Source of the DNA: Desulfurivibrio dismutans
Lineage (GTDB): Bacteria; Desulfobacterota; Desulfobulbia; Desulfobulbales; Desulfurivibrionaceae
Direction: 5' to 3'
DNA length: 64,000 bases
NCBI RefSeq assembly: GCF_029210385.1
Contig: NZ_JARGDQ010000006.1
Span: forward strand, 1-64,000
In this document: positions 21,370 through 39,715 of the stretch, piece by piece
How positions within the stretch are numbered: position 1 is the first letter of the stretch
How the letters are laid out: each line of letters starts with the position of its first letter
Translations under genes and position numbers: made by a program
Notes under the pieces: generated by a model
Told to the model about the DNA's origin: nothing
Database searches by the model: none
The model's input: only the letters and a program-made list of their open reading frames with translations

Positions 21370-22695
21370 ATGAGTGACGCACCTGTTGATTTACTGTTGA
21401 CCGCCGGTAGGGTACTGACCCTGGATGACCGGAACCGTGAGTTCACCGACGGCGCGGTGGCGGTGCGGGGCAGCGAGATCGTCGCCGTCGGTCCTGCCGC
21501 CGACCTGGCCGCCCGTTGGCCCCGGGCCCCCCGGCTCGACACCCCCCACGGCCTGCTGCTGCCGGGGCTGATCAACTGCCACACCCATGTGGCCATGAGC
21601 TGTTTCCGGGGCCTGGCCGATGACCTGCCCCTGATGACCTGGCTCACCGAACACATCTTCCCCGCCGAGGCCAAACTCACCGCCGAGATGGTCTACCACT
21701 CCAGCCTGCTGACCATGGCCGAGATGATCCGCTCCGGCACCACCAGCTTCTGCGATATGTACCTTTTCACCGCCCAGGTGGCGGCGGCCGCCGCCGACAG
21801 CGGGATGCGGGCCTGGGTGGGGGAAGTGCTTTACGACTTCCCCTCGCCCTGCTACGGTGAACTCGCAAGTGGTTTTCGTTATCTTGAACGGTTGTTTGCC
21901 GATTACGCCGGGCATGAGCTGGTCACCATCACCGTCGATCCCCACGCCGTCTACACCTGCTCGCCCGATCTGTTGCAGCGGTTGCACGGAGTGGCCCAAC
22001 GCCACGGCACCTTATATCATGTGCATCTGGCGGAAACCCGGGACGAGGTCAAAGGGTGCCTGGATAAATACGGTAAACGCCCGGTGGCCCATCTCGACGC
22101 CCTGGGGGTGCTGGACGAACGCACCGTGGCGGCCCACGGGGTCTGGCTGGAGCCCGATGAAATCGAGCTGCTGGCCCGGCGCGGCGTTAAAGTGGTTCAT
22201 TGCCCGGAAAGCAACATGAAGCTGGCCTCCGGCATCTCGCCGGTGCCGGAGCTGCTGGCCGCCGGGGTTACCGTGGGGCTGGGCACCGACGGGGCGGCCA
22301 GCAACAACGATATCGACCTGTTCAGCGAAATGGACATGGCGGCCAAGTTGCACAAGGTCAATAAAATGGACCCCACCGTCCTGCCCGCCGTCGAGGTGCT
22401 TGCCATGGCCACCCGTCAAGGAGCGCAGGCGCTGGGGGCCGGGGCGACCATCGGCAGCCTGGAGCCGGGGAAAAAGGCCGACTGCATTGTCCTTGATCTG
22501 CGGCATCCCCATCTTACTCCCTTGTACCATGCCGCTTCACAACTGGTTTACGCCGCCCGCGGCGCTGATGTAATCCACTCCCTGATCAACGGCCGGCTGT
22601 TGATGCAGGATCGCCGTCTGCTGACCATCGATGAAGCGGCGCTGGGTCGACAAATGCGGGATATCCAGGCCCGCCTGGCCGAAAAAGCGGCCTGA
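21370..22695 (+). CDS. mtaD: 5'-methylthioadenosine / S-adenosylhomocysteine deaminase
   Basis: 441 residues, amidohydrolase superfamily. Metal ligands are visible in INCHTHVAMSCFRGLADDLPL, HLAETRDE, the H of VAAHGVWL, and LGTDGAASNNDIDLF. Together with MTWLTEHIFPAE these fit the MtaD/SAH-deaminase group rather than guanine deaminase. It converts SAH and MTA to inosine derivatives, which the neighbouring phosphorylase may cleave. Deamination is the SAH-removal route in several organisms lacking AhcY. A short spacer with a GC-rich hairpin separates it from the phosphorylase gene. Confidence 0.88.
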   Translation: MSDAPVDLLLTAGRVLTLDDRNREFTDGAVAVRGSEIVAVGPAADLAARWPRAPRLDTPHGLLLPGLINCHTHVAMSCFRGLADDLPLMTWLTEHIFPAEAKLTAEMVYHSSLLTMAEMIRSGTTSFCDMYLFTAQVAAAAADSGMRAWVGEVLYDFPSPCYGELASGFRYLERLFADYAGHELVTITVDPHAVYTCSPDLLQRLHGVAQRHGTLYHVHLAETRDEVKGCLDKYGKRPVAHLDALGVLDERTVAAHGVWLEPDEIELLARRGVKVVHCPESNMKLASGISPVPELLAAGVTVGLGTDGAASNNDIDLFSEMDMAAKLHKVNKMDPTVLPAVEVLAMATRQGAQALGAGATIGSLEPGKKADCIVLDLRHPHLTPLYHAASQLVYAARGADVIHSLINGRLLMQDRRLLTIDEAALGRQMRDIQARLAEKAA

Positions 22696-22705
22696 GGAAA
22701 ATGCC

Positions 22706-24163
22706 ATGAATCTGACCCTGATGCACCGGCTGCTGCTGGTGGCCGCCCTGATTGGCTGGACCCTGACCGTGGGCGGTTTTTTCTTTTGGGACTTGCGCCT
22801 GGCCCGGGAGCACATGGAAGAGCTGGCCATCAAAGAGGCCCGCAGCAATTTTAATAAGGACCTTTCCTTTCGCCTGTGGGCCAGCCGTCATGGCGGAGTA
22901 TATGTGCCGGTTGACGAACGCACTCAACCCAGCCCCGGGCTGGAGCACCTGCCGGAAAGGGATATCTTAACCCCCTCCGGCCGACAGTTAACTTTGATGA
23001 ATCCGGCCTATATGCTGCACCAAATGATGGCCGAATACGGTGATTATTACGGGGTGCATGGGCGGATAGTTGGTTTCCGGCCGATCAACCCGATTAACGC
23101 CCCGGACTACTGGGAGAGATCGGCGTTGTCCCGCTTTCAGCAGGGCGCTGAAGAAGTGCTGGAGTTTTTTCCCGACGGAGATCTCCGTTTGCGCTTAATG
23201 CGACCGATCGAGGCCAGGGAAAGTTGTCTGAAGTGCCACACTGTACAAGGATACCAGGTCGGCGATGTTCTTGGTGGGATCGGTGTCAGTGTCTCGCTGC
23301 AACCATATCTGGAAACCCTGGTGAACACCCGCAAAAGCCGGACCACCTTTTTTGGTGTGATCTGGATCCTGGGGATGACGGTCATCTTGTTGCTGAACAC
23401 GCAGATTCTGCGGCGGCTGCGAGCCCAAGATGAACACGAAAAGGAACTCAGGGCCCAGCGGCGAGCTCTGCGCCGGGCCAATACCGACCTGACCCGGCTG
23501 GCCGAGGTCTCCGCTCATCACCTGCAGGAGCCATCCCGGCGGTTACTCACCTTCAGTCAGTTGTTGCGCGATCGACTCAACGGCGCGCAGACGGACCCGG
23601 AAGTCGCCCGGGCCCTGGAGTTTGTCGAGCATAATGCCACCTATCTGCGCAATCTGGTGCGGGATATCAAGCAGTTTCTGGATGCCGACCAACCTCGCGC
23701 CACCATGACCGAAGTGCCGATGGAGCAGGTTGTCGAGCAGGTGTGGCAAAATTTGTCGCCCCTGGTCAGGGAAAGCCGGGCGGAAATCAATGTGCTGCCG
23801 TTGCCGCCGGCCTTTTTCGATCTGCCGCGCCTGCAGGATGTTATTTTTGTTTTGCTGGAAAACGCCATGCTGTACGGAGTATCGGAAAAACCGCCCAAGA
23901 TCGAGATCAGCGGTGAAGCACTGGGGACCATGAACCGCTATCGGGTCAGTGATAATGGGCCGGGAGTACCGTCAAGCTATCGCCTGCGGGTCTTTGAGAT
24001 TTTTGAACGGCTCAACGGCGGCAGCCGCGGTACCGGCATCGGTCTGCCCATTGCCCGCCGCATCGTGGAAAGCGCTGGCGGCGAAATTGCTCTGGAAACT
24101 TCCGAGAGCGGTGGCTTGTGCGTGGTGTTCACCCTACCTGCTCAGCCGCCGGCTGGATCTTAA
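22706..24163 (+). CDS. Membrane histidine kinase with periplasmic heme-type DUF3365 sensor
   Basis: 485 residues. TM1 is about residues 8-28, TM2 about 214-232. The periplasmic part resembles DUF3365/Tll0287-type sensors and carries one c-type heme motif, CLKCH (174-178). A coiled linker leads to a phosphoacceptor helix AHHLQEPSRR (about 270-279); the related cyanophytochrome-type box is usually SHDLQEPLR, so His271 is the likely acceptor and His272 replaces Asp. The ATPase domain has NAMLYG (N box), DNGPGVP and RGTGIGLPIARRIVE. The ATG at 22706 has GAGGA 8 bases upstream. No response regulator is adjacent on this strand; redox or ligand sensing is an inference. Confidence 0.85.
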   Translation: MNLTLMHRLLLVAALIGWTLTVGGFFFWDLRLAREHMEELAIKEARSNFNKDLSFRLWASRHGGVYVPVDERTQPSPGLEHLPERDILTPSGRQLTLMNPAYMLHQMMAEYGDYYGVHGRIVGFRPINPINAPDYWERSALSRFQQGAEEVLEFFPDGDLRLRLMRPIEARESCLKCHTVQGYQVGDVLGGIGVSVSLQPYLETLVNTRKSRTTFFGVIWILGMTVILLLNTQILRRLRAQDEHEKELRAQRRALRRANTDLTRLAEVSAHHLQEPSRRLLTFSQLLRDRLNGAQTDPEVARALEFVEHNATYLRNLVRDIKQFLDADQPRATMTEVPMEQVVEQVWQNLSPLVRESRAEINVLPLPPAFFDLPRLQDVIFVLLENAMLYGVSEKPPKIEISGEALGTMNRYRVSDNGPGVPSSYRLRVFEIFERLNGGSRGTGIGLPIARRIVESAGGEIALETSESGGLCVVFTLPAQPPAGS

Positions 24164-24181: not shown

Positions 24182-25858
24182 TTGAGCCTGTTGTTGACGG
24201 AACTGATTTTTAACTTGGCCCTGCTGGTGGCCTTAAGCGTGTTCTCCGGTTTTCTTGATCAGCGCTGGCCGCGGGAGCATCGTTTGGGACCGGTGCTGCA
24301 GGGGCTGCTCTTTGGCTGCGCGGCCATCATCGGCATGCTTAACCCCTTGGTGCTGGAGCCGGGACTGATCTTTGACGGCCGTTCGGTGATGGTCAGTTTG
24401 GGCGCTCTGTTTTACGGCCCCTGGGCGGCCGTCCTGGCCGCCGCCATGACCATCGGCGCCCGGGTGGCCATGGGCGGGGTCGGAGTGGCCATGGGGGTGC
24501 TGTCGGTCCTCATCGCTGCCGGAGTCGGCCTGCTGGCTCACTACTACCTGCGTCCCCGGCGGACGGTGCTTACCGGCAAGGATCTTTACCTCTTTGGCCT
24601 GGTGGTGCACCTTGGCGTACTGGTCGGGATTTTGCTGTTACCCTGGGAGAGCGCGCTTAAAGTCATAGGCGAGATTGCTCTGCCCATCCTCCTTTTCTAC
24701 CCCCTGGCCACCCTGCTGGCCGGCAAGATCCTGGCCAACCAGGAGGCCCTGCGGCTCAGCGAAAAAAATTACCGGCAGCTGTTCGACAGCCATGCCGCCG
24801 TCAAACTGCTGATTGATCCCGATGATGGTCGGATTATCGATGCCAACCTGGCGGCGGCGCATTATTACGGCTGGTCGCAGCCGGAACTCAAGCTAATGCG
24901 GATCTCCCAACTCAATATCCTGTCCGACGAGCAAATCAGGTCGGAGATGACAAAGGCCCGCCGCCAGCAACGTTACCACTTCGAGTTCAAACACCGTCTG
25001 GCCGATGGGACGGTGCGGGATGTGGCGGTGTTAAGCAGTCCCACCCTGGTTGATGGCCGGGCCTTGCTGCATTCCATCATTTTCGACATTACCGAGCAAA
25101 AAAAGGCCGAAGAGGAGCAGGAACGGCTCACCGACCAGCTTTTTCAGGCCCGCAAAATGGAGGCGGTGGGCCGCCTGGCTGGCGGCGTTGCCCATGAGTT
25201 CAATAACCTGATGACGGCGATTTTGGCCAACGTACACCTGGCAAAAAACAAGCAGGGGAAGGACAGTCAAGCCGCCGAGGAGTTGGCGGGAATCAAGGCC
25301 GCCGGTGAACGGGCCGCCGAGTTGACCCGGCAACTGCTGGCCTTTGCCCGCAAGCAGAACATCAAGCTCGAGGAGCTTGACCTTAACGGGGCAGTGGATG
25401 CTTTTTTACCCCTGTTGCTCCGGTTGATCGACCATGGTGTGGAGTTGCGCTGGCAACCGGGCAGCGATCTTCCCCAGGTCCGGCTCGACCCGGACCAGCT
25501 TGATCAGTTGCTGGTCACCCTGGTGCGCAACGCCAAAGAAGCGGTGGGCACCAAAGGGGTGATTACCATCGCCACCGCCACCGCCGAACTGGACCAGGCC
25601 TTTTGCGATGAGCACCCCGGCGCCCGGCCCGGCCGCTATATCGCCCTGACCGTCAGGGATGACGGTTGCGGCATGGACCAAGAAACCCTGGGTAAGGTGT
25701 TCGAGCCCTTTTTTACCACCAAGGAATTCGGCCAGGGGTCCGGCCTTGGCCTGGCCACGGCTTATGGCATTATCAAGCAGAACGAAGGTTTTATTGATGT
25801 GGTCAGCGCCCCCGGCCGAGGTACCACGGTGACGGTATACTTACCGGTGGCGGGGTGA
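24182..25858 (+). CDS. PAS sensor histidine kinase with LytS-like 5TM domain
   Basis: 558 residues. Residues 1-190 are hydrophobic with the 5TMR-LYT pattern (IIGMLNPLVLEPGLIFDGRSVMVSLGALFYGPWAAVLAA). A PAS domain follows (about 195-310, NYRQLFDSHAAVKLLIDPDDGRI), then HisKA with GGVAHEFNNLMTAIL (His about 340) and an HATPase domain with N, G1 (DDGCGMD), F and G2 (GSGLGLATAYG) boxes. The start is TTG at 24182, with GGAG about 8 bases upstream. It follows the heme kinase by 18 bases and probably shares its transcript. Signal unknown. Confidence 0.87.
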   Translation: MSLLLTELIFNLALLVALSVFSGFLDQRWPREHRLGPVLQGLLFGCAAIIGMLNPLVLEPGLIFDGRSVMVSLGALFYGPWAAVLAAAMTIGARVAMGGVGVAMGVLSVLIAAGVGLLAHYYLRPRRTVLTGKDLYLFGLVVHLGVLVGILLLPWESALKVIGEIALPILLFYPLATLLAGKILANQEALRLSEKNYRQLFDSHAAVKLLIDPDDGRIIDANLAAAHYYGWSQPELKLMRISQLNILSDEQIRSEMTKARRQQRYHFEFKHRLADGTVRDVAVLSSPTLVDGRALLHSIIFDITEQKKAEEEQERLTDQLFQARKMEAVGRLAGGVAHEFNNLMTAILANVHLAKNKQGKDSQAAEELAGIKAAGERAAELTRQLLAFARKQNIKLEELDLNGAVDAFLPLLLRLIDHGVELRWQPGSDLPQVRLDPDQLDQLLVTLVRNAKEAVGTKGVITIATATAELDQAFCDEHPGARPGRYIALTVRDDGCGMDQETLGKVFEPFFTTKEFGQGSGLGLATAYGIIKQNEGFIDVVSAPGRGTTVTVYLPVAG

Positions 25859-25868
25859 GAACATCCTG

Positions 25869-26267
25869 TTACTCCTTTTTGTAGCGTGAAATCACCTGAT
25901 TGATGCTCTCTTTGAGTTTTTCTATTTTGAACGGTTTAAGTACATAGCCTTTGGCGCCGGCTTCGATGGCTTCAACGACCATCTGCTCCTGGCCGTGGGA
26001 AGTTACCATGATGATCAGGACGTCGGGGTCCATGGCCAAGATGCGGCTGGTGGCGGCAATGCCGTCCATTTCCGGCATGGTGATATCCATGGTTACCAAA
26101 TCAGGCCGGGGCAACCCTTTCTCTTTCAGGTACTTGAAGGTCTCCACCGCTTCCATCCCGCTTTTGCAGGTTTTGCTCACCTCGTGGCCAAGTTGCTCCA
26201 GCATGGCGCCCAGTTTTTTTATGGTCAAGGCCGAGTCGTCGACAACCATGATCTCGAGCTTATTCAT
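25869..26267 (-). CDS. CheY-like single-domain response regulator
   Basis: 132 residues, one receiver domain and nothing more. Acidic pocket Asp10-Asp11, phosphoacceptor Asp61 (TMDITMPEMDG), Ser90 at the conserved Thr/Ser position and Lys111 (LKPF) are all present. The ATG at 26267 has GGAGGG just upstream and overlaps the end of the CheX-like gene by 8 bases. As last gene of the hydrogenase operon it is the likely phosphate acceptor of the CheA-like kinase; no output domain means it must act by binding another protein, such as a flagellar switch or an enzyme. Confidence 0.93.
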   Translation of the reverse strand: MNKLEIMVVDDSALTIKKLGAMLEQLGHEVSKTCKSGMEAVETFKYLKEKGLPRPDLVTMDITMPEMDGIAATSRILAMDPDVLIIMVTSHGQEQMVVEAIEAGAKGYVLKPFKIEKLKESINQVISRYKKE

Positions 26268-26805
26268 TGATTCCCTCCGCATAGTCCAAGTTCATGGTGA
26301 AAAATTCTTTAGGGCCTACAAAATGAATACTCATCATGCCGGCGCCGGTTGTAACTTCGATGGTTCGGAAAGTCGCACCTTTATGACGGGTTATGGACTT
26401 TGCTTCATTGATCACCACCGGGGGAGTGATCGAAATGGTTTTCCCATTTACTTCATGGCCGGCAATGGCGTTGCCTGCAACGATGTTAATCATTTCCGCC
26501 ACCGCTTCCCCCCGCATCTCATCTCTTTCGTCGTCGGCAATTTCCAGCCCTTCGGCGCTGGCGGTTAGAATCTGTTCGGCCAACCCGTGATCGAAGCTGA
26601 AAGCCACCAGCAATCGAATTTCTGCGTCCAGAGCCAAGATTGAGGTCAGCTCCCGTAACTGCATCCGCACCACATCGTCACCAGCTTGATGTGCCTTGCT
26701 TACCGGGATTGCCAGCTCCTCTTTCATGTACTCGATGGTCCGTTTGCCGATGGCCTGCATCAGGCGGCGCACCCGGCCGCTGTCCAGCTTGTCATTGCTC
26801 ATCAC
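26260..26805 (-). CDS. CheX-like chemotaxis phosphatase domain protein
   Basis: 181 residues. The C-terminal 150 residues match the CheX/CheC-type fold, with the helix DEMRGEAVAEMINIVAGNAIAGHEVNGKTISITPPVVI. In CheX the corresponding helix carries an Exx(N) pair that dephosphorylates CheY; here E and N occur in EMINIVAGN. A 40-residue N-terminal extension precedes it. It overlaps both the kinase gene (14 bases) and the CheY-like gene (8 bases), so the three are translationally coupled. It probably shuts the CheY signal off. Confidence 0.82.
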   Translation of the reverse strand: MMSNDKLDSGRVRRLMQAIGKRTIEYMKEELAIPVSKAHQAGDDVVRMQLRELTSILALDAEIRLLVAFSFDHGLAEQILTASAEGLEIADDERDEMRGEAVAEMINIVAGNAIAGHEVNGKTISITPPVVINEAKSITRHKGATFRTIEVTTGAGMMSIHFVGPKEFFTMNLDYAEGINE

Positions 26806-29128
26806 TTTCCTCCGGTGTGATGTTGGTCGGTTTTTTCTCCAGATAAGGCAACCGGAAGCGGAAAGTGGTGCCCTGCCCGGGAGTTGATTCCACCTCTATT
26901 CGACCACCAAGCTTTTCCGTTTCCGCCTTCACCGCCGCCAGCCCTACACCACGGCCGGATAACTCGTTGGCCTGGTCCTTGGTGGAGAATTCGTCGTCGA
27001 AGATCAGCAGGTAGAGTTCTTCAGGCCGGGCGGCGGCGGCCTGGTCAGCGCTCAGTCGACCGAGGTCCACCGCTTTGAGACGAATGGCCTCGGCGTCCAG
27101 GCCGCGGCCGTCATCGGCGATTTCCAGGATAATGCCGTCGTCGCCTTCTCGAACCAGGCAGGTGAGATGTCCTGTCTCGTCCTTGTCCTGTTCCCAGCGC
27201 TCTTCCGGCGTTTCAATGCCGTGGTCCACTGCGTTGCGGAAAAGGTGGACCAGAGACTTGCTGAAAGATGCGTAAACTTCAGGTGCCACCTGCAGACCAT
27301 GGTCATCAATCTCGATAGGGGCCAGCTCTTTTTCCAAGCGTTCGGCAAGCCTCTGGGCCGCTTTGGTATAGCCGGCCAGCAGGTTACGAAATGGAAGATA
27401 GCGCAGCCGTTTAAGCCGCAGCAGCATGGTTCTGGTTTCATCGCTGTTCAGGTTCGGACCATGGCCGTGCAGCAGACGTTCGGCCAGTTTTTCCAGCATC
27501 TCCACTTCCTCGGAGGCCAATGAGAGCTGGCCGCGGCGGGCGAAAAATGCCTCTCCCAAGGTTTCACGCAGGATAACCAGATCCTGCTCCAGGGCCGCAG
27601 TGGCCTGTTGCATTTTGTTTTGCAACTCTTCGGGGGCGGGCTGTTGCTCGGCGGTTTCTTTATATTGCCGCAGTTCTGATTCGAACTGGTGCAGGCTTTG
27701 AGGCAGGTGAATAAATTCCAGTTGGCCGAAAAGTCCTTTGAAAGTGTGGACCTGGCGATAGATCTCGCTTAAGGCCGATTCCCGGTCGGTTGCCGCATTG
27801 TGCAGGAGCCTGGGTAGTTCTTGTTGTTCGAAGTGATGGTAGTCGTCAAGAACCTCGAAAAGCTCCGCCGATTCTGTAGCGGCACTGACAATCAGCCGTA
27901 GCCGGGTCTGTTCCTCGGCGATCTGGGACTCCAGTCGCAATTTTTCGGTGATATCGGTGATGATCAGCATCATTAGCCCCTCACCGATGACCCGGTAGGC
28001 GATTTCCAGGTTACGGCCGTTCAACTGGAACGTGGCGGGCAGCAAGGAGAGCAGGGTGTCGCGCTTGAACTCATCAGGGGTTTCTAGAATCCGCCGGATA
28101 TTGCTGCTGAAGCGGGTCGCTTCCGCCTCGTTATCGGGATAAAAAAGCTCGGTGATGGTTTTGCCGGTCAGGTCGGAGCCCATCAGGGTCTCACATTCTC
28201 GGCTGTATTCGGGGTCCACCCGCAGGTCGGGGCTGAAAGAGAGAAATCCCTGGCCAGAGTTGTTCAGCAGTCCGCCCAGGCGGTCGCTCTTCTCCGTCAG
28301 TTGTTGCCGAGTGATAAGGATCTGACGGTACATGGTGGCCACCAGGAAGGTCACCGCCAGCACCACGGCAGCGTTGATCAGCAGAAAGTAGATGAGCCTG
28401 CGGGTGTTTTCGTGGGCCTGGATCAGAAATGCATTTTTATCCATACTGACCCCCAATACTCCGGCCAACTCGCCGATTCGCCAGTTGGTGTGGCAGACCA
28501 GACACTGGCTGTCCACCGGGATTTGTTCATAAAAGTGAGCGGTGCGGTTGCCCAATGATTCAGCTCTGCCCTGGTCGTCGAAATGCAGACCTTCATCGAG
28601 CAGAAAATGGCAGTCAGCGCAAGGCGTTCCAGCCACCTGGGCCCGGTGTTGTCGGCCACGTGGCGAGTCAATGCGATCCACCAGATTCCAATCATCCCGC
28701 AGGAACATTCCTCTGGTTTGCCGGTAGAGCTCCTCGTTGGGGTTGATGAAATTGCCCTGGTCATCGTGGATAAAGGGGATGCCAACGGTAACCGTACCGG
28801 AGCGGTAGTTCATCAGGCCGTCGCGGTCGTAAAGGGTGGTGTCGACAACACCTTCCAGTTGGGCGATGTTGTCCATAACCAGGGCAAAGGATTTACGCTG
28901 ACCTTTCTCGATGGAATCCCTGGTTTGGGTAATGTAGTTGGTAAGTACCCCGTAACCCTGGTCCCGGATCATCGCCTCGGAGGTCTGAAGTTGGTAATGA
29001 TGGAAAAGCACCACCGCCGGCAGGGAGATAAGCAGCAGGCAGAAAAAAACGGTGCCCAGGAAACGGCAGCGCACTCGTTCCGGGTTGCTGATTCTGAACC
29101 ATTGCCGCCATGCCTGTCCAGGATTCAC
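26792..29128 (-). CDS. CheA-like hybrid kinase with two-heme periplasmic sensor domain
   Basis: 778 residues. TM1 about 23-43; periplasmic DUF3365-like region with two c-type heme motifs, CADCH (170-174) and CLVCH (209-213); TM2 about 245-266; a PAS-like domain (about 280-395); an HPt domain with phosphorylatable His461 (VHTFKGLFGQLEF); and a CheA-type ATPase with N box HLFRNAVDHGIE, DDGRGLD, FSTKD and GRGVGL. It ends right after the ATPase, without the CheW-like domain CheA uses to join receptor arrays. The start overlaps the hydrogenase small-subunit stop (ATGA). A periplasmic heme domain coupled to a hydrogenase suggests sensing of H2-derived electrons; that is inference. Confidence 0.85.
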   Translation of the reverse strand: MNPGQAWRQWFRISNPERVRCRFLGTVFFCLLLISLPAVVLFHHYQLQTSEAMIRDQGYGVLTNYITQTRDSIEKGQRKSFALVMDNIAQLEGVVDTTLYDRDGLMNYRSGTVTVGIPFIHDDQGNFINPNEELYRQTRGMFLRDDWNLVDRIDSPRGRQHRAQVAGTPCADCHFLLDEGLHFDDQGRAESLGNRTAHFYEQIPVDSQCLVCHTNWRIGELAGVLGVSMDKNAFLIQAHENTRRLIYFLLINAAVVLAVTFLVATMYRQILITRQQLTEKSDRLGGLLNNSGQGFLSFSPDLRVDPEYSRECETLMGSDLTGKTITELFYPDNEAEATRFSSNIRRILETPDEFKRDTLLSLLPATFQLNGRNLEIAYRVIGEGLMMLIITDITEKLRLESQIAEEQTRLRLIVSAATESAELFEVLDDYHHFEQQELPRLLHNAATDRESALSEIYRQVHTFKGLFGQLEFIHLPQSLHQFESELRQYKETAEQQPAPEELQNKMQQATAALEQDLVILRETLGEAFFARRGQLSLASEEVEMLEKLAERLLHGHGPNLNSDETRTMLLRLKRLRYLPFRNLLAGYTKAAQRLAERLEKELAPIEIDDHGLQVAPEVYASFSKSLVHLFRNAVDHGIETPEERWEQDKDETGHLTCLVREGDDGIILEIADDGRGLDAEAIRLKAVDLGRLSADQAAAARPEELYLLIFDDEFSTKDQANELSGRGVGLAAVKAETEKLGGRIEVESTPGQGTTFRFRLPYLEKKPTNITPEESDEQ

Positions 29129-30105
29129 TCACCGTCTCCCTGGGCCTTTCGGTTAAAAGTAATAGTTTCTCCCTGTAGCAGGCCTTCTCGCACCCGAGGA
29201 TCATCGTAAAGATGGTATATTACCGGCCGCGGAAAAAGCTCGCTGGCGCAGCCAATACAAGGATGGCCGGCTCGGAGACAGTAGTTGCTGTTGCCATTGT
29301 AACCGGTACTGGGGCAGTCATTGTAGGTGACCGGTCCCTGGCAACCTAACTCAAGCAGACAGCCGTCTTCCCAGATGTGGCGGGCAAAGTTCTGTTCTTG
29401 GAAAAATGCGTAACGAGGACAGCGTTGGTGGATGGTGTAACTGAAAAAACGGCTGGGGCGCCGGCGGCCGTCCGTTTCCGGTAAATTCTGGTGACGCATA
29501 AAGTGCAGCAGAGTGTAAACCAGGTGCTCTGGTTTCATGGGGCAGGCGGGCAGGTTGATCAACGGGGTCTTGATCCCTTCTTTGGCAAGATGTTCGGCCA
29601 GGGAAATAACTCCGGTGAGGGTGCCGGGCATGGCTGCCACCCCGCCGGAGACGGCACAGGTGCCGGCGGCCAAACAGGCGCTGGCTCCCGCCGCCAGTCT
29701 GCTGACCCATTTACCGAGGGGTTGATGGTCAAGCATACAGGCATGGGGCATAGCGGCCGGGATCCCGCCTTCAAGGACAAGAATATAAGGTTCATCACCA
29801 TCGGCCAAGGCCGAAAGCAATTCTCCCACCTGATCACCGGTGGCCTGTGCCAGGTTGGGGTGGTAAAGCAAGCGACTGAACTGAGTCAACAGGTCCAGCA
29901 CGGTTATCTGTTCGATATTGAGCAGAGAGATGGAACATCCCGAACAGGAGGCCCCTTGCAGCCAGACCAGATTGGGACGCTGCCTGGGCCGCTCACCACT
30001 TTCGGCGGCCAGCAACTCATCAAAGGAGAGCAGTGGCGCCGCCCCGGCGGCCACCACCACCCGATAAATTTTTTTAAGGAACTCCCGGCGACTGAATGGA
30101 ATCAT
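29125..30105 (-). CDS. [NiFe] hydrogenase small subunit, Tat-exported
   Basis: 326 residues. A twin-arginine signal, SRREFLKK (5-12), leads a hydrophobic stretch, so the enzyme should be periplasmic. Proximal cluster ligands are Cys54, Cys57, Cys150 and Cys188; distal ligands are His226, Cys229, Cys249 and Cys255; the medial cluster has Cys264, Cys283 and Cys286. An additional Cys276 (NYCLRAGHPC) stands where Desulfovibrio-type enzymes have Pro, so the medial cluster may be [4Fe-4S] rather than [3Fe-4S]. No C-terminal membrane anchor follows. It lies 9 bases after the large-subunit gene, the reverse of the usual order, and overlaps the kinase gene. Confidence 0.92.
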   Translation of the reverse strand: MIPFSRREFLKKIYRVVVAAGAAPLLSFDELLAAESGERPRQRPNLVWLQGASCSGCSISLLNIEQITVLDLLTQFSRLLYHPNLAQATGDQVGELLSALADGDEPYILVLEGGIPAAMPHACMLDHQPLGKWVSRLAAGASACLAAGTCAVSGGVAAMPGTLTGVISLAEHLAKEGIKTPLINLPACPMKPEHLVYTLLHFMRHQNLPETDGRRRPSRFFSYTIHQRCPRYAFFQEQNFARHIWEDGCLLELGCQGPVTYNDCPSTGYNGNSNYCLRAGHPCIGCASELFPRPVIYHLYDDPRVREGLLQGETITFNRKAQGDGE

Positions 30106-30114
30106 AAAAATTAC

Positions 30115-31682
30115 CTAGTGCACGGAACAGGCTATACAAGGATCCGCCGAGCGGGCAATCCGCGCCGCCTCCAGCGGTTGTTCCGGGTTGCTGATCCTGG
30201 TGCCCAGCAGCATCTTTTCCACCGCCCCGGGCTTGCCTTCGGCGTCTTTGGGGCCGAAGTTCCAAGTGGACGGCACCACCAATTCATAATTTTTGATCAG
30301 GCCGGCCTCGTCGGTTTCCAACCAGTGTCCCAAGGCGCCTCGGGAGGCCTCGGTTATGCCCACACCCCGGGCATTGCGCGGCACTTCCCGTTCTTCAAAC
30401 CCCAGTACACCGTCTTCAACCATTTCAACCTGCTCTTTAAGCCGGCCGATGATCAGTGCCGCCGAGAGGTAACGGCTGAGGTGGCGACCCATAACCGAGT
30501 TGTAATCGGCCAGGGTTATTCCAAGCTCTCGGTTGGTGTGACCCACCAGTTCCCGCAGAACTTGGTTGCCGCCCTGATGGTAGGAGTTGACGATGCGGGC
30601 TGCAGCCCCAACTTCCATTACCTCCCCGTGATAACGGGGGGCTCGACTCCAGCTGTATTTGCCGCCTTTTTGCTGTTCTTCTCGCTGAAATTCCTGCCAG
30701 TTAAGGGGGGTAAGGCGCTTGGTGCCCAGGGGCGGCAGGGCAGCGCCGGATTCCTGGCGATAAAAGGCATAGGTGTGATCTTCGCTGATGGCTCCAAGAT
30801 CCAGAGGTTGGTGTTCACCGTTCAGCAGGGCGCCGCCGGTAAAGAGATGATTGTCGCCGTCGGCTTCGGGCATAAAGGGGAAGGAGAGTAGGTTGCCGTA
30901 TCCCCGGCCTTCCTGGAAATAGTGAGGAAAAGCCCGACAAACGCTGAAAATGTCTTCACGGTAAGGCCCCAGTACAAAAGCTTCCGCCCGGCGCAGCAGG
31001 GTGCGATATTGGGCCAGCATCCCCAGGGTGGGACGGGTGGTGACCCCGCCGGCTTCAATGGCCACCGGGTGCGGCGCTTTGCCGCCGAAAATGGCCACCA
31101 TTTTTTGTAATTCGGCCAGGAGGGTGAAGTTGGAAAAATAATTGCGGACCAGCAGCAGGCTGTCGGCATCACCCTGCATTTGATCATCATTACGGTAGCG
31201 GGGCAGGAAGGGGGCGCCGGGGAAAATACGGGAAGAACCGAGCTCCTCCCGCACCCATTGGCGAACTGTGCCAAGTACGGGATCGGTGCCTTTATAGGCC
31301 AGCACCGCCTCAATGTCTATAAAGTCCAAGGCACTAAGTTGGTAGAAGTGCAGCAGAGAGTCATGTACCAGGTAGGCGCCGGTGATGAGATTACGCAGCA
31401 ACTGGCCGTTGGTGTTGGGGCGGATGCCCATGGCGTCTTCCAGGGCCAGGGCGGCGGCTTCGGCATGAGAGTACGGGCAGACCCCGCAGACCCGCTGGGT
31501 TACCTGTTGGGCCACTCGGGCGTCGTACCCGATCAGGGCCTTCTCCAGGCCACGGAAGAGCAGGCCGGCAACTTGGGCTTGAGTGATTATCCCATCTTCC
31601 ACCCGGGTTTCGATTTTAAGATGTCCTTCCACCCGGCTGAGAGGGTCTATGACAATTCTGGTACTTGTACCTTTTTATTCAT
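30115..31682 (-). CDS. [NiFe] hydrogenase large subunit, no C-terminal extension, apparent N-terminal frameshift
   Basis: The reading frame from 31632 down is intact and encodes RVCGVCPYSH and the terminal DPCIACSVH, the four Cys ligands of the NiFe site. The stop directly follows the final His, so there is no peptide for a maturation protease to remove, as in H2-sensing regulatory hydrogenases. Upstream in the same frame the conserved TRIVIDPLSRVEGH is present, but a stop lies 7-8 codons earlier and no usual start codon precedes it. The nearest ATG (31682) is one frame off; adding one A to the A5 tract at 31676-31672, or a -1 slip on AAA-AAG there, joins MNKK to GTSTRIVIDP. A GTG at 31632 would drop part of the conserved motif. 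Expected length about 522 residues. Confidence 0.88.
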
Positions 31683-31692
31683 GATAGTTAAG

Positions 31693-31721
31693 GGTTTAAC
31701 CAAAACTTGATGTTCTGTCAA
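31693..31721 (-). promoter_or_regulatory. Possible promoter of the hydrogenase-kinase operon
   Basis: Minus strand: perfect -35 TTGACA (31721-31716), 17-base spacer, weak -10 TAAACC (31698-31693). It would put the transcript start within a few bases of the ATG at 31682, nearly leaderless, consistent with the absence of a clear ribosome site there. The surrounding 150 bases are AT-rich, with an imperfect inverted repeat around TTGTT-AATTC-AACAA near 31740. Confidence 0.35.
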
Positions 31722-31839
31722 TAAAATCATTTTTTGTTGTTGAATTAACAAAGAGAGGGGGTCAAATATTTGTTGTTTCGCAAAAAATGTGAACATTAGT
31801 TGTTGGTGCAGTGCGAGGAAGCAATACTTGCAGGTAAGC

Positions 31840-36358: not shown

Positions 36359-39300
36359 ATGCTTGACGAGTGGCAACGGCTGACCTGCGACGGCCGGTCG
36401 ATTTATGTGCATCCGGAAAAACCGGACTGGGTGGTGGTCAATGACCGGGCCGATGAACTGTTGCAGGCCCTGCAGGGCGTTGGCTCATCCGGCTCCCTGG
36501 GCGAGGCGGTTTGTGCCGTCAGCCGGGGAGCCGGGCTGAGCGAACAGAACCTGGCCGGCAACCTGCTGGCGGCCGAGCGTTTGCGGTCCCGGCTGGATGA
36601 GCCGGCCCCACCCTATCCGGGCCGGGCCGAGCTGCTGCGGGGAGGAACCTCGGCTCTCCCCACGCTCAAGGAGTGCTGGTTTCATCTCACCAACAACTGT
36701 AACCTTGCTTGCCGCCACTGTCTTTTTGCCTCCCGCCCCGGCCTGGCGGCGGAGAGCCTGCCCGCCGAGCTGTTGCGCCGTGGCCTGGCCGAGGCCCGCG
36801 AGTTGGGCTGCCGGCTCTTTTATTTCACCGGCGGCGAACCTTTTACCTACCCCGATTTCACCGCCGTCCTGGCCGAGTTGTTGGCCGACCCCGACCACCA
36901 TGCGGTGGTGCTGACCAACGGCCTGCTGCTGGCCGATCACCTGCCCGCATTGCAAAAACTGCCTAGCCAGCGTCTGCACCTGCAGCTCAGCCTGGACGGC
37001 CTGGCCGAGCAGCATGATCAACTGCGCGGCCGGGGCAGTTTTGCCCGCCTGGTGGAAACCCTGCAACTGCTGCGCCGCCACGGCCCGGCGGTCACCCTGG
37101 CGGTGGCGGTGAACCGCGCCAACATCGAGCAACTGCCGGCCTTGGTGGATTTTGCCGCCGATCAGGGGGTGGGTAATCTGCATCTGCTCTGGCACTTTGT
37201 CCGGGGGCAGGGGAGCCGGGAGCAGTTTGTCCCCCCGGCCGAGATCCTGCCCCGGTTGCTGGCCGCCCAGGAGCGGGCGGAGGCGCGCGGGGTGTTGATC
37301 GACAACGTGGAAACCCTGCGCGGCCAGGTTTTCTCCTCACCGGGCACCCGTTATGACCTGGCCAACACCGCCTGGGAATCATTGACGGTAGGCCCCGACG
37401 GCCGTGTTTATCCCTCGCCGGCCCTGGTGGGCATTAACGAATTGGACTGTGGCCTCCTCACCGACGGCCTGGCCCGGGTCTGGCAACAAAGCCCGGTGTT
37501 GCGGCAAATCCGTGCCGCTTCCTTGCAGGACAGCGAAGTTTACCGGCAAAACCCGCTGAAATTCCTGGTCGGCGGCGGCGACTTGGACCACAGCTACCTG
37601 GCCGGCGGGGAGCTGATCGGCCATGATCCTTACCTGGAACTATACAACGGCCTGACCCTGTGGCTGATCGCCCGCCAGGCCGCCAGTTACCCCGAAAATA
37701 TTAACCAACCGTTGGGCCAACAGGGGGGTGGCTCCGCTGAGGAGGGTGGCGCTGGTGAGGAGAGTAGCTCCGTTGGAAGGGAGCCTGGGCACCGTGGTCA
37801 ACCACCGGCCCTGTTGCTGGCCATGGGCGAGGTGCGCCATGACTGCCCCGACGGCGGGGCGGCGGTAAGCTTCACCCATTGCAATTGCGTGATTTCCCTG
37901 GCCCAAGGGCAGGGCCACGGGCACGGGCCGGTGCGGGATTTTTACGCCGCCGCCGCCCGCTCCGCCCGGGATGATATCCTCAACCCGCTGGCCCCGGAAC
38001 AGGCTCTGGCCACCTTCATTCCCGAAGAGTCCCGGCGGAAATCTTACGGTTGCGGCAGTCCGGTCCATGATGCCGCCCCGCAGCCCGGCGAGGTGCTGGT
38101 GGACCTGGGCAGCGGCAGCGGCGTGGAATGTTTTATCGCCGCCCGAGCAGTGGGGCCGACCGGCCGGGTCTACGGCATTGACATGACCGACGAGATGCTG
38201 GCCCTGGCCGAAAAGTCCAAGGCGGCGGTGGTGCGGGAGTTGGGCGGCGATAATGTGGAGTTCAAAAAGGGGCTGCTGGAGGCCATTCCCCTGCCGGATG
38301 ATTGCGCCGACGTGGTGATCTCCAACTGCGTGATCAATCTCAGTCCGGACAAGCGGCGGGTTTTTTACGAGATTTTGCGGACTCTCAAGCCCGGCGGCCG
38401 GCTGGTGGTTTCCGATATCGTCACCGATCAGCCGGTGCCGGTGGCGATAAAAAACAACGTCCGGTTGCGGGGCGAATGCCTGGGTGGGGCCATGCGCCAG
38501 GAAGACCTGCTGGCCATGCTGCAATGCTGCGGTTTTGTCGGCGGCCGCCTGCTTAAACGCTTTCCCTACCGCCAGGAGGGCGACACCCGTTTTTATTCCC
38601 TGACCTTTGCCGCCGACAAGCCGGTGGAGCCACAAAGCCTGGAGGTCATCTACCGAGGCCCCTTTGCCGCCGTGCAGACCGCATCCGGGGTGCTGCTGCG
38701 CCAGGGGCAGCGGGTGCGGGCGGAGTTGAACGAGTCCGAGCGCCGCGACGAAACGATCTTTGTGGTGGACGACCGCGGTGCGTTTACCAATCTACCCATG
38801 GGTGACGGCTGTTGCTCGCCGGCCCCAAAGGGAGATCCAGCGCCAGGGAAAGCTCCGGCAATGGTGGCTGCAGCACCGGCCAGGAAAACCCTGCCGCTGT
38901 TGGCGCCCGGGGTGGGAGTTCCGGCCGCTGGGCCGGGGCCCGCCGCCGGCGCCTGTTGCCCGCCGTCGCCGATGGGAGCGGATGCGTCATCGGAGAAGTC
39001 GGCCGGCGCTCCCGCAACCGCCCGGCACCAGGCCGGCTGCCTGGTCTGCGGCGAGGAGATTCAATACTCCCGGCAAGATCGGGCCCATGGCTGTCATTAC
39101 TGCGGCGGAAGCAAGAAAACCAACGCCGTCTGCCGGCAGGGTCATTATATCTGCGATGACTGCCATCAGCGCGACGGCCTGTCGGCCATCCGGTTGATCT
39201 GCAGCGAAACCACCGAGCAGGACATGCTGGCCCTGCTGGCCCAAATCCGCCGTCATCCCGCTATTCCCATGCACGGTCCGGAACACCACGCCCTGGTGCC

Positions 39301-39715
39301 GGGGGTGATTCTGGCCACCTACCGCAACCTGGGCGGCGAGTTAAGCAAGGAAGCGATTCTCACCGGGATAGAACGTGGCGCCAAGGTCCCCGGCGGGGTC
39401 TGCGGTTTTTGGGGCAACTGCGGGGCGGCCGCCGGGGCCGGTATCGCCTTCAGCGTCCTGCTGGAGGCCACTCCGTTGACCCCGGAACCCCGCCGCCAGG
39501 TCCAGGAGATCACCGCCCGCATCCTGAGCGCCATTGCCGGTATCACCGGCGCCCGTTGCTGCCAGCGGGAATCTTACACCGCCCTGCGCGAAGCGGCGGC
39601 GATCTCTCGAGAGCTGCTGCCCGTTTCTCTGCTGGCCGAGGCCGATTTTACCTGTGGCCAGGCCGCCGCCAATCCCCAGTGCATCCGTCGCCAGTGCCCG
39701 CTGACCCCTGCTTGA
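36359..39715 (+). CDS. Fusion protein: PqqD-like, radical SAM, ArsM-like methyltransferase and DUF5714-like modules
   Basis: 1118 residues. Residues 10-85 resemble a PqqD/RRE-type domain. A radical SAM domain follows with its cluster motif CNLACRHC (Cys114, 118, 121) and GGEP (158-161), then a SPASM-like stretch poor in Cys. A linker with THCNC (507-510) and GHGHGP precedes an ArsM-type methyltransferase: YGCG (Cys565), DLGSGSG (582-588), SNCVINLSPDK (Cys657) and GECLGGA (Cys707). The 50-residue Cys657-Cys707 spacing equals that of the arsenite-binding Cys pair in ArsM/AS3MT. Cys pairs at 818-819 and 866-867 flank a low-complexity linker. Residues 893-1118 look like DUF5714 (GVCGFWGNCGAAAGAGI). 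It may modify arsenic or another soft metalloid; that is inference. Confidence 0.85.
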   Translation: MLDEWQRLTCDGRSIYVHPEKPDWVVVNDRADELLQALQGVGSSGSLGEAVCAVSRGAGLSEQNLAGNLLAAERLRSRLDEPAPPYPGRAELLRGGTSALPTLKECWFHLTNNCNLACRHCLFASRPGLAAESLPAELLRRGLAEARELGCRLFYFTGGEPFTYPDFTAVLAELLADPDHHAVVLTNGLLLADHLPALQKLPSQRLHLQLSLDGLAEQHDQLRGRGSFARLVETLQLLRRHGPAVTLAVAVNRANIEQLPALVDFAADQGVGNLHLLWHFVRGQGSREQFVPPAEILPRLLAAQERAEARGVLIDNVETLRGQVFSSPGTRYDLANTAWESLTVGPDGRVYPSPALVGINELDCGLLTDGLARVWQQSPVLRQIRAASLQDSEVYRQNPLKFLVGGGDLDHSYLAGGELIGHDPYLELYNGLTLWLIARQAASYPENINQPLGQQGGGSAEEGGAGEESSSVGREPGHRGQPPALLLAMGEVRHDCPDGGAAVSFTHCNCVISLAQGQGHGHGPVRDFYAAAARSARDDILNPLAPEQALATFIPEESRRKSYGCGSPVHDAAPQPGEVLVDLGSGSGVECFIAARAVGPTGRVYGIDMTDEMLALAEKSKAAVVRELGGDNVEFKKGLLEAIPLPDDCADVVISNCVINLSPDKRRVFYEILRTLKPGGRLVVSDIVTDQPVPVAIKNNVRLRGECLGGAMRQEDLLAMLQCCGFVGGRLLKRFPYRQEGDTRFYSLTFAADKPVEPQSLEVIYRGPFAAVQTASGVLLRQGQRVRAELNESERRDETIFVVDDRGAFTNLPMGDGCCSPAPKGDPAPGKAPAMVAAAPARKTLPLLAPGVGVPAAGPGPAAGACCPPSPMGADASSEKSAGAPATARHQAGCLVCGEEIQYSRQDRAHGCHYCGGSKKTNAVCRQGHYICDDCHQRDGLSAIRLICSETTEQDMLALLAQIRRHPAIPMHGPEHHALVPGVILATYRNLGGELSKEAILTGIERGAKVPGGVCGFWGNCGAAAGAGIAFSVLLEATPLTPEPRRQVQEITARILSAIAGITGARCCQRESYTALREAAAISRELLPVSLLAEADFTCGQAAANPQCIRRQCPLTPA

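Follow-up and report, generated by a model that had tools for sequence, protein, structure and literature searches.

A hydrogenase-heme kinase operon of Desulfurivibrio dismutans and the probable sensory role of its family of periplasmic [NiFe] hydrogenases

Genes of the operon

We analyzed a stretch of 64,000 nucleotides from Desulfurivibrio dismutans (the window in the text below), which corresponds to contig 30 of a genome of 2,838,417 bases in 33 contigs. On its minus strand, at positions 25869-31682, the window holds five genes in the order hydrogenase large subunit (LSU), hydrogenase small subunit (SSU), heme kinase, CheX and CheY (Table 1). A gap of 9 nt separates LSU from SSU, and the later junctions overlap by 4, 14 and 23 nt. 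The initial annotation had described such a set of close-packed genes on one strand, and it was confirmed by reading frames, spacing and Pfam matches. We detected NiFeSe_Hases in the LSU (E 5e-129), Oxidored_q6 and NiFe_hyd_SSU_C in the SSU, Hpt and HATPase_c in the kinase, CheX in the fourth gene (E 1.5e-13) and Response_reg in the fifth.

Table 1. Genes and motifs of the operon, with positions in the window
Feature	Positions	Strand	Remarks
[NiFe]-hydrogenase large subunit (LSU)	30115..31682	-	ATG at 31682 matches the AHT2 start; no open frame before 31674
[NiFe]-hydrogenase small subunit (SSU)	29125..30105	-	Tat signal; without C-terminal membrane anchor; Pro to Cys at the medial cluster
Twin-arginine motif of SSU, SRREFLK	30073..30093	-	read directly from the sequence
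CheA-type membrane kinase	26792..29128	-	TM, heme sensor, TM, PAS-like region, Hpt, HATPase; without CheW domain
Periplasmic heme sensor domain of kinase	28400..29002	-	homologous to the sensor of hydrogenase-linked MCPs
CxxCH heme motif 1, kinase residue 170	28607..28621	-	kept in kinase-type operons, lacking in MCPs
CxxCH heme motif 2, kinase residue 209	28490..28504	-	invariant in kinases and MCPs alike
Hpt phospho-acceptor His461 (QVHTFKG)	27746..27748	-	invariant in 11 homologues
CheX-like CheY-P phosphatase	26260..26805	-	catalytic E-x2-N present (E104, N107)
CheY-like single receiver	25869..26282	-	phospho-acceptor Asp66

Both cysteine pairs of the active site were present in the LSU (RVCGVC and DPCIACSVH), and the stop codon stood directly after the last ligand histidine, which leaves the protein without a C-terminal extension. 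The L2 motif has a Cys codon and not selenocysteine, and NCBIfam scores of the [NiFeSe] type were below their cut-offs. The SSU has the twin-arginine motif SRREFLKK near its N-terminus, and nearly all of its relatives have a Tat motif too. All Cys and His ligands of the three Fe-S clusters were present and were invariant among the relatives. Beside the medial cluster we observed Cys, while the ordinary hydrogenase of the same genome has Pro in this place. HysB also has Cys at its medial cluster.

In the kinase we identified two hydrophobic spans (about residues 19-47 and 243-273). Both CxxCH motifs lie between them, therefore the heme motifs are placed outside the membrane, on the same side as the Tat-exported SSU. 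In both respects the initial annotation was right. The Hpt phospho-acceptor and the CheA-type N and G boxes were present. The protein ends with its ATPase domain, and no CheW match (P5, CheW-binding) was found in it. Comparison of its sensor domain with the sensors of MCPs revealed an insert, present only in the kinase, which bears the first CxxCH. The sensor profile gave nothing above cut-off against Pfam, with weak echoes of Tll0287 and dCache only, and the single-sequence fold of the domain had a pLDDT of 44. The two last genes agreed with the expected CheX-like phosphatase and lone receiver, since the phosphatase residues E104 and N107 are invariant among the homologues and the receiver retains Asp66. 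The genome of the strain also holds HypD (maturation) and cytochrome c assembly genes.

The upstream limit assigned earlier to the operon stood only in part. By homology the gene starts at ATG 31682. In the present assembly, however, an apparent 1-nt frameshift puts this codon out of frame with the remainder of the LSU. The stretch from this ATG to GAC measures 35 nt here and 36 nt in D. alkaliphilus AHT2, and there is a run of five A at 31672-31676. As the A run is one nt short, the LSU as assembled lacks an in-frame ATG where the gene should begin. The copy of AMeS2 might be a recent pseudogene, with a frameshifted LSU and a decaying operon that is functional in D. alkaliphilus. Such a reading is limited to the copy in the window and is compatible with hydrogen sensing by the operon. 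Apart from the one-nucleotide difference two codons into the LSU, it would agree with a strain that does not use H2 (PMC12142623) and with a decayed MCP-type copy in the same genus. We regard it as rather unlikely, because the rest of the LSU is an open frame (omega 0.096), the other four genes are intact, and assembly errors can account for a one-base difference in a run of A.

Upstream of the LSU, at 31683-31760, we noticed an inverted repeat resembling TTGTTaattcAACAA together with a TTGACA box, which are roughly retained in AHT2 and are a possible promoter or operator. Near the operon, the plus strand encodes a second, unrelated c-heme histidine kinase with a Tll0287-like domain and HATPase (22631-24163), and 3' of it lies a 5TM-LYT PAS histidine kinase (24182-25858). 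Further, positions 36359-39715 are occupied by a single frame of 1118 aa, in which a radical SAM domain is combined with an ArsM-like methyltransferase and DUF5714.

Conservation of the operon and its MCP-type relatives

Conservation of the gene order had been set beforehand as a test of the proposal. The order was kept in D. alkaliphilus AHT2, which is the nearest genome to the source, and at nine further loci, so that with the window it was found at 11 of 11 kinase-type loci in ten genomes (contig ends interrupt two of these loci). These loci belong to two families of the order. The full-length kinase homologues detected in a set of 58 related genomes were all located inside the same operon (G002, which is AHT2, G013, G014, G017, G021, G022, G025 and G041); G025 carried two copies of it. 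The tenth locus outside the window, in G115, has its kinase split over two frames. The homologues came from this search of related genomes, and a contig scan with the kinase as query returned no full relative. Among plasmid records no member of the clade was detected, the best identity being 33%. All five genes are under purifying selection compared with AHT2 (omega 0.06-0.20). Since the whole operon is conserved and omega is in this range, we consider the arrangement to be more than chance.

Besides this operon, the genome encodes another LSU-SSU pair (42% and 39% identity). The gene after it is that of an MCP whose periplasmic domain has a single CxxCH. The heme domain of this MCP is homologous to the sensor of the kinase. 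LSU searches covered 243 genomes from the order and 395 from the phylum and yielded homologues of 38-46% identity; 60 gene neighbourhoods were read for their layouts. We observed three: LSU-SSU-heme kinase-CheX-CheY, LSU-SSU-heme MCP, and LSU-SSU-heme MCP-CheA-CheW-MCP. The second, with a Tat signal on the SSU, was present at about 60 Desulfobacterota loci. CheA, CheW and another MCP were added at four to six loci (L098, L107, L115 and L117, partially L109 and L124), and the CheA of L098 comprises Hpt, dimerisation, ATPase, CheW and receiver domains. The third gene after LSU and SSU encoded an MCP in 35 and a kinase in 7 out of 44 cases. When the 44 third-gene proteins were aligned, eight positions were invariant, all of them in the periplasmic domain, and CxxCH was among them. 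A draft genome of the same genus (G003) contains decayed remnants of a hydrogenase-MCP operon (L197).

The sensory reading is stronger than when it was first put forward, because the same sensor domain sits on MCPs, both in the same genome and in relatives. The five-gene operon of the initial annotation was retained; that picture did not include the MCP family, the frameshift and the missing C-terminal extension.

The signalling part of the operon also has relatives of its own. The CheY of the window shares 57-60% identity with its counterparts in kinase-CheX-CheY cassettes at other loci, and cassettes of kinase core, CheX and CheY occur free of hydrogenase genes (L288-L291), with a receiver (L288) or dCache (L289) as input. 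As kinase-CheX-CheY recurs without a hydrogenase, the operon looks like a ready-made cassette joined to a hydrogenase-linked heme input, and kinase core-CheX-CheY may be a general signalling cassette.

Phylogeny and linkage with the heme sensor

We built a tree of 82 large subunits. All members without the extension grouped together (SH-aLRT 89), to the exclusion of the uptake hydrogenases from those genomes, the NiFeSe enzymes and the references HyaB, HybC, HoxG, HupL and HoxC. HoxC was placed outside this clade, on a long branch shared with the other group-2 reference. The LSU of the window falls within the clade, whose other members adjoin heme chemoreceptors, and so outside the ordinary uptake hydrogenases, as the sensory proposal had implied. 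The kinase-type LSUs formed one group (support 100) next to or inside the MCP-type members. We do not claim that they are nested inside the MCP-type clade: the tree placed them so (97% SH-aLRT), and the AU test was not significant (p = 0.18).

An ordinary periplasmic uptake hydrogenase that feeds a respiratory chain and is merely co-transcribed with signalling genes would share with these enzymes the full set of active-site and cluster ligands, Tat export and membership of the wider group 1. We find this explanation very improbable. No gene for cytochrome b, NrfD, or a multiheme or quinone-linked partner was found in the operons that we read, the enzymes have neither a membrane anchor nor a C-terminal extension and form a separate clade, their tie to signalling proteins is fixed at about 64 loci, and H2 does not support growth of the strain (PMC12142623).

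The sensor domain was detected 1.04-1.39 kb after the LSU stop at 64 of 64 loci without the extension and at 0 of 39 loci with it (p = 3e-29), where the sensor profiles had been built from 38 of the tested loci and most of the extension loci had only about 1.5 kb of downstream sequence. In the 243 genomes of the order the profile was positive for all 44 hydrogenase genomes and for five more. Three of the five had hydrogenase loci at contig ends or with broken frames, one had a decayed copy and one gave a weak match. One genome (G071) carried a second sensor MCP without a hydrogenase. In the phylum-wide search the profile recovered operons that were missing from the LSU list, namely three no-extension hydrogenase-MCP operons (L279, L281 and L282) and another hydrogenase-MCP operon, L274, which is probably of the same type. 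FliM was present in 42 of 48 sensor-bearing genomes and in 130 of 195 others (p = 0.004), which is a modest link with flagella, uncorrected for relatedness.

At the level of the phylum we rejected the idea that the heme domain occurs solely in hydrogenase operons, as weaker heme MCPs without hydrogenases were found there. Eight loci (L270-L273 and L275-L278) represent a wider family of sensor-related heme MCPs, mostly not beside hydrogenases. As such weaker relatives are borne by MCPs with no hydrogenase nearby, the heme domain itself is not specific to H2, and it was probably recruited from a general family of heme receptors. One could therefore propose that the domain serves in general to sense redox state, O2 or NO, and that its heme is merely reset by hydrogenase electrons, with H2 as co-substrate and not as signal; the kinase-CheX-CheY cassettes with other inputs (dCache, receiver domains) would agree with it, like the distant heme-domain relatives. 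We judge this unlikely, since in the order the close sensor subfamily practically always occurs with a hydrogenase, and the linkage is that of one receptor per hydrogenase.

Proposed function and comparison with known systems

Taken together, these results suggest that the hydrogenases of the clade are very likely signal inputs. We consider it probable that the operon is a hydrogen-sensing signal operon and that the whole clade consists of sensory, mostly chemotactic, periplasmic [NiFe] hydrogenases. Judged from sequence, H2 is likely to be the signal and its electrons are likely to pass to the heme. In such a mechanism the SSU would carry the LSU to the periplasm by the Tat pathway, where the pair would oxidise H2 and dock on the heme domain of the kinase. 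Electrons would then leave the distal Fe-S cluster for c-type hemes, which are predicted at the CxxCH motifs, and the redox state of the hemes (or the docked state of the hydrogenase) would set autophosphorylation of the CheA-type core. The phosphate would be transferred from His461 to Asp66 of CheY and removed by CheX, so that the output would be at the protein level, most likely in flagellar behaviour. Elsewhere in the genome and in relatives the same type of hydrogenase would feed a heme MCP, in some genomes with a complete CheA-CheW set, for which reason the whole clade is best read as sensory and mostly chemotactic. With moderate confidence we lean towards a wider proposal, namely that this is an unrecognised lineage of [NiFe] hydrogenases across Desulfobacterota which act as periplasmic chemosensory subunits, pass electrons from H2 to the c-type heme of an MCP or a CheA-type kinase, serve H2 taxis and represent a second origin of sensory [NiFe] enzymes without the extension.

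Cells of D. dismutans AMeS2 are motile and bear one or two flagella. The strain shows no growth on H2 (PMC12142623), and a role in H2 metabolism is therefore not evident. D. alkaliphilus has been called non-motile (PMC5016858), contrary to PMC12142623. Possible H2 chemotaxis was described in Oleidesulfovibrio alaskensis, with the receptor unnamed (PMC12004927). H2 is among the main currencies of anaerobic sediments, and swimming directed by H2 has been suspected in sulfate reducers, for which the receptor is not known. The operons supply candidate H2 receptors that can be tested with one gene cluster. They also suggest a principle of sensing whereby a chemoreceptor binds its ligand through a redox enzyme. 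On the sensory reading, such genes, when found in metagenomes, should not be counted as evidence of H2-based growth.

The clade shares the active-site Cys pairs, the Tat-exported SSU and the three Fe-S clusters with group 1 uptake [NiFe] hydrogenases. It differs from them in the C-terminal extension, which is cleaved during maturation and was present in 39 of 39 others compared and in none of 64 clade members. In the operons no gene for a respiratory electron acceptor lies between the LSU and SSU genes or next after them, where a heme receptor is encoded instead. The nearest solved structures are those of enzymes from sulfate reducers, the periplasmic [NiFe] hydrogenase 1e3d and the [NiFeSe] hydrogenase HysAB (4kl8 and 1cc1). 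These are likewise periplasmic, whereas the enzyme of the window has Cys and not Sec, the gene order LSU-SSU, no extension and no gene for a cytochrome c3-type partner.

A periplasmic c-type heme domain on an MCP, with a redox signal, is also a feature of DcrA of Desulfovibrio and of the heme MCPs of Geobacter. We know of no pairing of these chemoreceptors with a hydrogenase. With the CheA-CheX-CheY system of Thermotoga the operon has in common the Hpt His, the CheA-type ATPase, a CheX with E-x2-N and a lone CheY. The kinase of the window, however, is its own membrane sensor and lacks a CheW-binding domain, which puts it outside the receptor array.

HydDB in 2016 listed two sensory [NiFe] groups, 2b with a histidine kinase and 2c with a diguanylate cyclase, and associated none of its [NiFe] classes with MCPs or with CheA-type kinases; its [FeFe] group C2 was labelled 'chemotactic (putative)' (PMC5037454). 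H2 sensing through MCPs was proposed for group C2 too, an enzyme class unrelated to [NiFe]. In the open-access literature we found no earlier account that links a [NiFe] hydrogenase with an MCP or a CheA-type kinase, and the present clade would be a sensory [NiFe] class that HydDB 2016 lacks.

The regulatory hydrogenases HoxBC-HoxJ and HupUV-HupT (HydDB group 2b) similarly use a hydrogenase as input to a histidine kinase. HoxC is a proven H2 sensor and is not C-terminally processed (PMC9100943); it ends with DPCMVCTVH and, like the LSU of the window (DPCIACSVH), has no extension. The regulatory hydrogenases are cytoplasmic group 2 enzymes with a soluble PAS kinase, a DNA-binding regulator and a transcriptional output, whereas the system of the window is group 1-like and Tat-exported, with a c-heme membrane kinase or MCP and output through CheY. 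The contrast drawn in the initial annotation therefore holds: because location, partner and phylogeny all differ, the hydrogenase of the window is not a regulatory hydrogenase by membership, though similar in its proposed function. If both HoxC and the periplasmic clade are sensors, the C-terminal extension would have been lost twice.
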